Assembly: GCA_017623935.1 (NCBI GenBank)
Contig: JAGAOC010000030.1
Coordinates: forward strand, 1-42,971
Length of the DNA: 42,971 nucleotides
Reading direction: 5' to 3'
From: Agathobacter sp.
GTDB taxonomy: Bacteria > Bacillota > Clostridia > Lachnospirales > Lachnospiraceae
Part shown: piece after piece, positions 776 to 40,912 of the stretch
Numbering within the stretch: the first letter of the stretch is position 1
How the letters are laid out: each line of letters starts with the position of its first letter
The notes under the pieces: model-generated
What the model was told of the DNA's origin: nothing
The model's input: only the letters and a program-made list of their open reading frames with translations
The model's database searches: none
Translations under genes and position numbers: made by a program

Positions 776-804
776 TTGACAAATATATCCTTTTCCGATA
801 GAAT
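776..804 (+). promoter_or_regulatory. Promoter of the ABC-F leader and gene
   Basis: Consensus TTGACA (776-781), a 17-nt spacer and TAGAAT (799-804). Transcription would start near 811, leaving a leader of about 255 nt before the ABC-F start codon. Confidence 0.85.
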
Positions 805-834
805 AAACCCAGATTATGTGAAAGAGGTGAAAAG

Positions 835-846
835 ATGAGAAGATAA
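835..846 (+). CDS. Leader peptide uORF, Met-Arg-Arg-stop
   Basis: ATG AGA AGA TAA follows a strong Shine-Dalgarno AAAGAGGTGA (821-830) at normal spacing, about 25 nt into the predicted transcript. A three-codon ORF with such a good ribosome binding site, upstream of an ABC-F gene and a terminator, fits the translation-sensing uORFs known from antibiotic-resistance attenuators (I recall a three-residue uORF at Listeria lmo0919). The ribosome-bound region is itself complementary to the downstream terminator, which supports a regulatory rather than a product role. Confidence 0.65.
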   Translation: MRR

Positions 847-955
847 TTCCTTTTGATAACATGTTGAGACAGGTACTTTGCGCGAGAAGTGCGCAGGTAC
901 GTTTTAGAAGCAGCGATTCCCAATGGATGAACTGTTTTATCATGTTGCCAAAAGT

Positions 956-984
956 GGATTATGATTCTCATAACCTCTTTTTTT
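956..984 (+). terminator. Intrinsic terminator in the ABC-F leader
   Basis: GGATTATGA (956-964), loop TTC, TCATAACC (968-975; one bulged A in the 5' arm), then T7 at 978-984. It lies 81 nt before the ABC-F start, so it must be read through for expression. Confidence 0.75.
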
Positions 985-1065
985 GTTGCAATAAATGAAA
1001 AGAACCCGCCAGAAAAAAGTTAAGAGAGAACATTCCAATTTGGCAGCAGAGAATTGGAGGTATAT

Positions 1066-2619
1066 ATGGCACAGATTAACGTAACGAATCTTACATTTAA
1101 TTATGAAGGTAGTTTTGACAATATTTTTGAAAAGGTCTCTTTTTCCATTGACACGAACTGGAAACTGGGATTTTTAGGGAGAAATGGAAAAGGAAAGACC
1201 ACTTTTTTAAATCTGCTGTTGGGAAAATACGAATACGAAGGAAGTATCAGCACTTCTACAGTCTTTGATTATTTTCCGTATGAGATAAGACCGGAATACC
1301 TTACCCAGTTTGCGGGGGATTTTTTAGAGGAATTAAAACCTTCCTGCGAACTGTGGAAAGTCTTATGTGAATTGGATCAGCTACAGGTGGATGCAGAGGT
1401 TTTATATCGTCCATTTGAGACTTTAAGCCACGGAGAGCGTACCAAGGTAATGCTGGCAGTGTTGTTCTCGGGAGAGAATGATTTTCTGCTGATCGACGAA
1501 CCCACCAATCATTTGGATAAAGATTCCAGAGAGATCATAAAGGACTACTTGAAACAGAAAAAAGGATTTATTCTGGTATCCCATGACAGAGATCTGCTAG
1601 ATGCTTGTATCGATCATGTATTGGTGCTGAATCGTTGTTCCATTGAAGTACAGAGTGGGAATTTTTCTAGTTGGTGGGAAAATAAGAACAGAAAAGACAA
1701 TTTTTCCCGTATGGAAAATGAGAAGCACAAAAAAGAGATTGATAAGTTAAAGAAAGCTTCCGAGCGAACGAGACAGTGGGCAGACAAAAGCGAAAGCTCT
1801 AAGATCGGATTTGATCCTACCAAAGAACATGATAGAAGCATTTCCACCCGGGCATATATTGGGGCAAAGACCAAGAAAATGCAGAGCAGGGTAAAGCAGA
1901 TGGAGGATCGGATCGACCGGGAGATCGCGGAGAAAGAGGGCTTGTTGCAGGATATCGAGTCGCCGGTAGACTTAAAGATCATGCCTTTAAGCCATCATAA
2001 AGAAGTGCTGCTTTCTGCTAGAGAATACAGTCTGCGATATGAAGACGCAAAGGAGCCATTGTTTACAGATCTGACCTTTGAGCTGCGTCAGGGAGACAGA
2101 CTTTTCCTAAATGGCAAGAATGGCTGTGGAAAATCCAGCCTTATCAAGGCAATCTTACGGAAACTATCTCAGCAAACGAACAGGCAGGATCTGACCCTTC
2201 CGGTGTGGGGAAAAGGAGCAGAAGAATCGGGAGGGTTGTCCATAGCATCCGGTCTTGTGGTCTCTTATATCAACCAGGATACGTCCTTTTTGAAAGGAAA
2301 TATCAAAGATTTCTGCAGGGAAAAAGGGTTAGAAGAAAGTCTTTTTTGCAGTATCTTAAGGCAGTTGGATATGGAACGGGTGCAGTTTTCAAAGAATATG
2401 GAAGATTTTTCCGAGGGGCAGAAGAAAAAGGTGCTGATCGCCGCAAGCCTTATGACCCCGGCACATTTGTATATCTGGGATGAACCGTTAAATTACATTG
2501 ACGTATTTTCCAGAATGCAGATTGAAAAACTGCTTCTGACCTATCAGCCTACCATGCTCTTAGTGGAGCATGATGTGATGTTTCGTGAGAAGATCGCCAC
2601 GGGGGTAGTGGAACTGTAA
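1066..2619 (+). CDS. Lsa-like ABC-F ribosomal protection ATPase
   Basis: A 517-residue soluble twin-ATPase protein. ABC-F proteins bind the ribosomal E site and dislodge antibiotics; the Lsa/Vga/VmlR group gives lincosamide, pleuromutilin and streptogramin A resistance. ABC1: Walker A GRNGKGKT at 38-45, signature LSHGE at 120-124, DEPTNHLD at 144-151. A charged helical linker follows at about 190-310, the domain that reaches the peptidyl-transferase centre. ABC2: Walker A GKNGCGKS at 350-357, a degenerate signature FSEGQ and DEPLNYID. No membrane segments. ATG 1066 is chosen over an upstream in-frame TTG (1054) because GGAGG at 1056-1060 serves it. Lsa-like subfamily placement is from sequence feel; the drug spectrum is untested. 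The leader suggests drug-inducible attenuation. Confidence 0.93.
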   Translation: MAQINVTNLTFNYEGSFDNIFEKVSFSIDTNWKLGFLGRNGKGKTTFLNLLLGKYEYEGSISTSTVFDYFPYEIRPEYLTQFAGDFLEELKPSCELWKVLCELDQLQVDAEVLYRPFETLSHGERTKVMLAVLFSGENDFLLIDEPTNHLDKDSREIIKDYLKQKKGFILVSHDRDLLDACIDHVLVLNRCSIEVQSGNFSSWWENKNRKDNFSRMENEKHKKEIDKLKKASERTRQWADKSESSKIGFDPTKEHDRSISTRAYIGAKTKKMQSRVKQMEDRIDREIAEKEGLLQDIESPVDLKIMPLSHHKEVLLSAREYSLRYEDAKEPLFTDLTFELRQGDRLFLNGKNGCGKSSLIKAILRKLSQQTNRQDLTLPVWGKGAEESGGLSIASGLVVSYINQDTSFLKGNIKDFCREKGLEESLFCSILRQLDMERVQFSKNMEDFSEGQKKKVLIAASLMTPAHLYIWDEPLNYIDVFSRMQIEKLLLTYQPTMLLVEHDVMFREKIATGVVEL

Positions 2620-15755: not shown

Positions 15756-15763
15756 TTTAACAG

Positions 15764-15846
15764 TGCCGGCAGTGGGACTTGAACCCACACGTGGTTACCC
15801 ACAACAGATTTTGAGTCTGCATCGTCTGCCATTCCGACATGCCGGC
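15764..15846 (-). tRNA. tRNA-Leu (anticodon CAA)
   Basis: 83 nt on the minus strand. Acceptor GCCGGCA (15840-15846) pairs with TGCCGGC (15765-15771), with discriminator A at 15764. D stem TCG/CGA, anticodon arm GCAGA-CTCAAAA-TCTGT (anticodon CAA, codon TTG), a long class II variable arm as in Leu, and T arm GTGGGTTCAAGTCCCAC. CCA is not encoded. Confidence 0.95.
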
Positions 15847-40830: not shown

Positions 40831-40860
40831 GCATGCTAGGAGATATAAAAAATACAAGAA

Positions 40861-40912
40861 TTCATATGAAAAACGCAAATAAAACACAAAAGTTCATATG
40901 AAAAAAGCAAAT
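40861..40912 (+). repeat. Paired direct repeat with TTCATATGAA palindromes upstream of the ATPase gene
   Basis: TTCATATGAAAAAMGCAAAT occurs at 40861-40880 and 40893-40912, 32 bp (three helical turns) apart; each contains the perfect palindrome TTCATATGAA. They lie 42-93 bp upstream of a perfect TATAAT at 40954-40959, a layout that suits a dimeric regulator bound to one face of the DNA. Confidence 0.6.

Follow-up and report, generated by a model that had tools for sequence, protein, structure and literature searches.

Among the leaders described to date, those of Bacillus subtilis vmlR and Clostridioides difficile cplR are closest to the one studied here. In the vmlR leader, a tripeptide upstream open reading frame (uORF; Met-Ile-Asn) lies in a hairpin and follows an anti-antiterminator/antiterminator logic, and a hairpin that sequesters the Shine-Dalgarno sequence (SD) is opened in the induced form. 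The uORF's own SD is single-stranded there and the uORF sits in a bulge; once this SD or the uORF start codon was disrupted, almost no expression remained (PMC9226507). The cplR leader precedes a PLSA-type ABC-F gene, carries a tripeptide uORF with Arg at codon 2 (Met-Arg-Ile) and a 5' hairpin that sequesters the uORF, and combines transcription and translation attenuation. Mutation of the cplR uORF start abolished activity whether or not drug was present, and regulation persisted after the poly-U was altered (PMC10201436). Enterococcus faecalis lsaA, compared by its uORF alone, has an Lsa-type gene and a very short uORF in common with the present leader and differs in its uORF consensus, MAGN (PMC10201436). 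With LSAP drugs, ribosomes came to a halt on the start codon of two uORFs of this kind (PMC12421871).

The element reported here, which we call the three-arm leader, resembles the vmlR and cplR attenuators. Unlike in vmlR, the SD, start, codons and stop of its uORF lie largely in duplex, and this duplex adjoins a U-run of its own. In cplR, going by the description in that paper, one terminator hairpin itself hides the SD, whereas leaders of the present type have a likely terminator at the uORF hairpin (T1), followed by a second terminator (T2) or, in part of them, by a hairpin around the gene's SD. Its uORF peptide, Met-Arg-Arg, falls outside the consensus of the CplR leader type, MR[I/M].

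Results

The leader of an Lsa-like ABC-F gene

The window, the whole stretch of DNA that was analysed, comprises 42,971 nucleotides of Agathobacter sp. (contig JAGAOC010000030.1), and all leader features lie on its forward strand. Positions 776-1066 form the leader of an Lsa-like ABC-F gene, with a promoter, a Met-Arg-Arg uORF with an SD, and a long hairpin. The promoter (776-804) is of the sigma-70 type, with TTGACA at 776-781, a 17-nt spacer and TAGAAT at 799-804. It was called perfect in an earlier sequence-only reading of this DNA; at 11 of 12 consensus matches, it is near-perfect. From the promoter spacing, transcription would start near position 811. The uORF, ATG AGA AGA TAA at 835-846, and its SD, GAGGTG at 824-829, could be read directly where that reading had placed a Met-Arg-Arg-stop uORF with an SD.

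The SD of the downstream gene, GGAGG, is at 1056-1060, and the gene (1066-2619) encodes a 517-residue Lsa-like ABC-F ribosome-protection protein. Its product scored above the cut-off for the ribosomal protection-like ABC-F family (NCBIfam NF000355; 431.4 against 380 bits). It scored 618.9 bits against NCBIfam Lsa (NF000167), below the curated cut-off of 750, and we therefore call it Lsa-like rather than Lsa. Among solved structures, Lsa(A) (7nhk) is nearest in sequence. A 39-bp unit in tandem (2608-2733, 3.2 copies) starts in the last codons of the gene and extends beyond its stop.

Homologous leaders in one bacterial family

When 62 genomes of the genus were searched at the protein level, 21 had a match, and a scan of genome contigs yielded 48 loci. 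By hand count, the 45 usable scan loci comprised 37 with the same leader type, six with a related type that has a four-codon uORF, and two from Bacilli with neither. Unused were three gene fragments (L023, L034, L035), L060, L082 and L084, and L037 and L038, which duplicate L016 and L017. The alignment, A1, contains 45 leaders. It omits 17 whose arms did not match the typed consensus: three with the uORF arm beyond the stretch read (L047, L076, L083; added later by hand), a second group of eight (L026, L027, L067-L071, L081), four distant leaders (L030-L033) and the two from Bacilli (L073, L074). The second group has mostly four-codon uORFs (MISR, MINR, MKIR, MIFR, MIVR and MRNR; LKR with a TTG start in L027). 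By inspection, its uORF hairpin is without a T1-like U-run, and masking of the uORF rearranges downstream hairpins in several members.

With a covariance model, R1, the element was detected in 50 of 397 genomes sampled from the window's family, one of them the window's own. In the order, 13 of 392 genomes had it, and each of these belongs to that family. Under strict filters, a phylum sample of 398 genomes returned only the window's own. R1 matches on the second strand at the same places reflect the symmetry of the hairpins. Protein-found and R1-found leaders, less three duplicates and including the window, make up 95 distinct leaders. Because a model trained on 45 of these leaders supplied part of the set, counts taken from it are not independent of the search.

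The leader of the window had no match in Rfam 15 at the gathering score. At E values up to 1, region 700-1150 matched two microRNA models alone, both far below gathering. The leader had no match on plasmids, and a 20-base word taken from arm 2 (see below) had no exact counterpart in viral contigs. A search by title and abstract, in a collection with few subscription papers, returned no paper on the three-arm leader. The original Term-seq work reportedly covered such leaders. As an attenuator family, the three-arm leader would be missing from Rfam 15, and it occurs at the above frequency among sampled genomes of one bacterial family.

The uORF is retained in all leaders

We observed a short uORF in 95/95 leaders, with ATG, GTG or TTG as start codon and an SD-like 4-mer before it in 94. 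The peptides were MRR (34 leaders), MRK (18), MKR (12), MRI (11), MKK (4) and others (15); the L076 uORF, unread automatically, is MKR by its sequence. MRM was present in two of the 95. Every peptide contains Lys or Arg. Selection for Arg at codon 2, assessed from the third bases of CGN versus AGN codons, was not significant (P = 0.28). Outside the 95-leader set, L151 has a longer reading frame at the uORF site.

A 45-residue open reading frame that runs through T1 (861-998) was rejected as a gene; no SD was seen before it and it is not conserved. Among the 83 leaders that share the CATG word, the frame has at least 40 residues in 17, with a median of 23.

The uORF arm coevolves with arm 2

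The 5' side of the long hairpin, arm 1 (820-863), consists of the uORF SD, the uORF and the bases that follow; the 3' side is arm 2 (941-981). Folding of 811-985 gave −58.9 kcal/mol, with helices 820-828:973-981, 835-841:965-971, 843-849:956-962, 850-855:949-954 and 857-863:941-947. Coordinates and pair count agree with the earlier proposal that the uORF region (821-850) pairs with 956-980 over about 22 bp in a helix that continues upward. Folding of the full leader (811-1066) gave a z of −4.68 (0/200 shuffles as good). The base helix of the long hairpin was not formed in this fold because CCUCU of arm 2 paired with the gene's own SD.

Across the 45 aligned leaders, 93.8% of arm 1:2 cells were paired (0/500 shuffles as high), and 94.7% in the helix that holds the uORF SD. 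Both sides had changed in 11 of 36 pairs, giving 34 double-change cells (0/500 shuffles as high); these are compensatory changes of the kind that the sequence-only reading had proposed to check in homologous leaders. When arms were swapped between leaders, cognate combinations were better in 860 comparisons, worse in 85 and tied in 45 (0/5000 permutations). Arm 1 and arm 2 coevolve. Every leader had a uORF, and arm 1:2 pairing was kept in 94 of 95 (z < −3; exception L139).

The long hairpin adjoins a U-run

At the base of the long hairpin, GAGGU (824-828) pairs with ACCUC (973-977), and this helix runs directly into a U-run (978-984). We therefore read the long hairpin as a likely terminator by form (T1), acting in the OFF state, and as a lock on arm 2. 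A U-run at a hairpin base thus provides the leader with an intrinsic terminator by form, and covariation and folding together indicate a hairpin that sequesters the uORF, as an anti-antiterminator would. Of the 95 leaders, 83 have a U-run of at least five in a 22-nt stretch spanning the end of arm 2. T2 was present in 10 of the 12 leaders that lack it, an association that was not significant (P = 0.12, 95 leaders; P = 0.13, 45 leaders). The notion that the T1 U-run is lost only where T2 exists was set aside as a non-significant trend.

The sequence-only reading had assigned the terminator to a short local hairpin, 956-980. This hairpin (−8.6 kcal/mol in the window, with the U-run) is the weaker of two that can use U978-984. 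Its pairs were 88.6% paired in the 45 leaders, with no excess over shuffles (131/500 as high). The median was −5.7 kcal/mol across 95 leaders, compared to −12.9 kcal/mol for T2 in 59 leaders, and 73 of the 95 local hairpins were weaker than −8 kcal/mol, making the window's stronger than usual. With the uORF masked, it is predicted to form at the window's U-run at a stage when arm 3 does not yet exist, and it might cause some termination in the ON state. The ABC-F leader, the tripeptide uORF and the mutually exclusive structures of the sequence-only reading were upheld; its choice of 956-980 as the terminator was not, this hairpin being weak in most homologs and without covariation.

Arm 2 moves to arm 3 when the uORF is masked

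Arm 3 (1018-1049; core TTTGGCAGCA at 1039-1048) is an alternative partner of arm 2, identified by a shuffle test, an own-partner test and masked folding. We masked 815-851, where a ribosome on the start codon would be expected to sit. In the full leader, arm 2 then left arm 1 and formed 38 pairs with 1008-1050, and the SD hairpin dissolved. During stepwise masked folding, the top of arm 1:2 persisted until arm 3 was made; arm 2:3 was complete from transcript end 1050, with no SD-hairpin pairs, and at end 1100 the gene's SD paired with coding sequence. In unmasked stepwise folding the long hairpin stayed, while ends 1060 and 1080 opened its base and the SD paired with CCUCU of arm 2. The computation thus gave an alternative structure with the uORF occupied. 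Folding with and without the uORF had been put forward in the sequence-only reading, and alternative structures were indeed obtained, but with the uORF masked arm 2 goes to arm 3, which that reading had missed.

In the window, arm 2:3 had a z of −3.8 (0/200 dinucleotide shuffles of the downstream region). Of 45 leaders tested against such shuffles, 28 reached the 1% level and 34 the 5% level. In the wide set it was equalled or beaten by at most 3/60 shuffles in 73 of 94 leaders, and 21 of 94 failed the 5% level; the fractions at or below 5% were similar with T2 (46/59) and without T2 (27/35). Cognate arms 2:3 were better than swapped ones in 3703 comparisons, worse in 446 and tied in 222 (0/5000 permutations). 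In the own-partner test on the last 70 nt, arm 2:3 was better in 3058 and worse in 1035. The gene-start control was flat (2094 versus 2046), and the loop control, in which leaders with very short loops received a ten-A filler, gave 1614 versus 2460. A reversed-sequence control mildly preferred its own partner (2483 versus 1692; 27/2000 permutations); composition or relatedness may therefore account for part of the arm 2:3 signal.

Two putative outputs behind a putative shared sensor

In the window, a hairpin at 1033-1059, extended by two pairs (1030-1031:1060-1061), encloses the gene's SD according to the fold. Homologs have T2 at this place. Scored as a motif (7 of 10 letters) followed by five T, T2 was found in 59 of the 95 leaders and was absent from the window; stricter and looser rules gave 26/45 and 28/45, respectively. 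Arm 3 overlaps the T2 core in 58 of the 59 T2 leaders. The median distance from arm 3 to the gene is 18 nt without T2 and 54.5 nt with it.

SD exposure was computed for 91 of the 95 leaders, leaving out one with a short downstream stretch and three without a recognisable SD. With folding stopped at the start codon, freeing arm 2 raised the unpaired fraction of the SD from 0.35 to 0.67 in the 33 leaders without T2 (20 up, 3 down; P = 9e-5) and left it unchanged in the 58 with T2. For the window, the same fold gave 0.10 with arm 2 absent and 0.98 with arm 2 free. The effect depended on the length of coding sequence folded: it was significant at gene +3, +12 (P = 0.02) and +20 (P = 0.015) and not significant at +30, +40 or +50. 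At +40 the means were reversed (0.43 to 0.33; 7 up, 12 down; P = 0.14). In the window, exposure still rose from 0.13 at +30, +40 and +50, to 0.43, 0.25 and 0.52. A general exposure of the SD in the ON state was discarded, none being seen across 45 leaders with 40 nt of coding sequence.

We mapped T2 presence on a tree of 88 ABC-F proteins. Of the 95 leaders, four were without a usable protein (L036, L086, L091, L109) and three were removed as other proteins (L096, L134, L138). The tree was built quickly, with poor support for 36 of its 85 inner branches; 22 changes were needed on the best tree, and well-supported branches gave 11 independent pairs. The output therefore seems to have been swapped many times, between a terminator and the region near the ribosome-binding site; the sensor-hiding hairpin itself resembles a terminator.

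Discussion

A stalled ribosome as the probable ON signal

We propose, with a probability of roughly 0.7, that this leader is a three-arm ribosome-sensing attenuator in which a stalled ribosome means ON. Its sequence parts, the conserved, coevolving pairings of arm 1:2 and arm 2:3, and the refolding with the uORF masked were all obtained by computation here. In the OFF state, a ribosome would finish Met-Arg-Arg and depart, and arm 1 would pair with arm 2. The resulting hairpin would terminate transcription at U978-984, hide the uORF's own SD and hold arm 2 off arm 3. Transcripts that escape would keep the gene's SD paired, either inside hairpin 1033-1059 or through CCUCU of arm 2. In the ON state, a drug, expected to be a pleuromutilin, lincosamide or streptogramin A, would halt the ribosome at the start codon, where it would cover about 815-851 and keep the lower part of arm 1:2 from forming; RNA polymerase would pass T1. 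Arm 2 would then pair with arm 3, open hairpin 1033-1059 and expose the gene's SD. Many related leaders instead have arm 3 as part of T2, which the same arm 2:3 pairing would open. The drug-induced stalling, the termination at T1 and T2, and the induction are our inference.

The sequence-only reading had the opposite sign: a ribosome on the uORF would free the short hairpin (956-980) to terminate, and loss of initiation would let the long hairpin form as an antiterminator and allow readthrough. The strength of the window's short hairpin, its U-run and its predicted formation with 815-851 masked speak for this. The long hairpin, however, itself adjoins the U-run and is a terminator by form, and covariation of the short hairpin is not above shuffles, most local hairpins being weak. 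Masking of the uORF moves arm 2 onto arm 3, an arm that this sign leaves without a role. By analogy, vmlR and cplR with a disabled uORF start are uninducible rather than constitutive. These start-mutant results, together with the stalling of ribosomes by LSAP drugs, favour a stalled ribosome as the ON signal. We consider the reversed sign improbable, and the direction of the switch in the sequence-only reading is probably wrong.

Control might also lie in SD exposure (or T2) alone, with the long hairpin just keeping arm 2 off arm 3 and T1 being no working terminator. The 12 leaders without a T1 U-run of at least five would fit such a switch, as would the second group of eight, whose uORF hairpin is by inspection without a T1-like U-run, and the continued regulation of cplR after its poly-U change. 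Yet the U-run around the end of arm 2 is kept in 83 of 95 leaders and directly follows the hairpin base in the window, and the computed SD exposure varies with the length folded; we regard this version as unlikely, though it deserves some weight. A long hairpin that serves chiefly as an RNase III or stability element, its pairing with the uORF being incidental, is very improbable. The duplex is very long and nearly unbroken, as such an element might be, but start codons stay ATG, GTG or TTG, the SD-like 4-mer is retained in 94 of 95 leaders and the short uORF in all, and arm 2 coevolves with arm 3. The attenuator in which a stalled ribosome means ON remains our preferred reading.

Genes behind the leader

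We examined the genes downstream in 51 R1-bearing genomes besides the window's (49 from the family sample and two further from the order sample). The next gene was Lsa-like in 45 of the 51. One of these, in L090, stands behind an intact-looking leader and matches the window's protein over the first 101 residues only. The other six genomes differ. L134 and L138 have another ABC-F type, with 24% and 23% identity to the window's protein; that of L134 scored 309.6 bits against NF000355, below the cut-off of 380. The same second type is present in L155 and L157, sister genomes of L134, at 78-79% identity to it, and three of these four cases come from one genus. In L086, a GNAT protein follows a three-arm leader with T2. 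In L096, such a leader, also with T2, precedes a P-loop protein that is PRK06761-like (139 bits, below the cut-off of 270) and carries a GNAT domain behind the P-loop domain; this GNAT domain is 60% identical to that of L086. Five other elements in the genera of L086 and L096 (L149, L150, L151; L144, L145) precede Lsa-like genes, and the GNAT cases therefore look like replacements in single species. In L109, only 12 codons of an ABC-F gene remain after the leader, and the gene for a MATE-type efflux pump comes next. In L091, a metallophosphoesterase lies farther downstream, its link to the leader being uncertain.

The three-arm leader may be a portable antibiotic-sensing cassette, with a conserved sensor (the uORF arm and arm 2) and exchangeable outputs (T2 or the SD hairpin) and genes, so that the genes that follow it flag unrecognised resistance genes. 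We hold this idea tentatively and with some doubt. If it is true, candidate unrecognised resistance genes would include those for the second ABC-F type and for the GNAT acetyltransferases found in two genera, and the leader before genes other than ABC-F would offer a direct way to seek unrecognised drug-response genes in gut bacteria.

Elsewhere in the window, we observed a tRNA-Leu (anticodon caa) at 15763-15846 on the minus strand, and a 32-bp direct repeat in two copies at 40849-40912.
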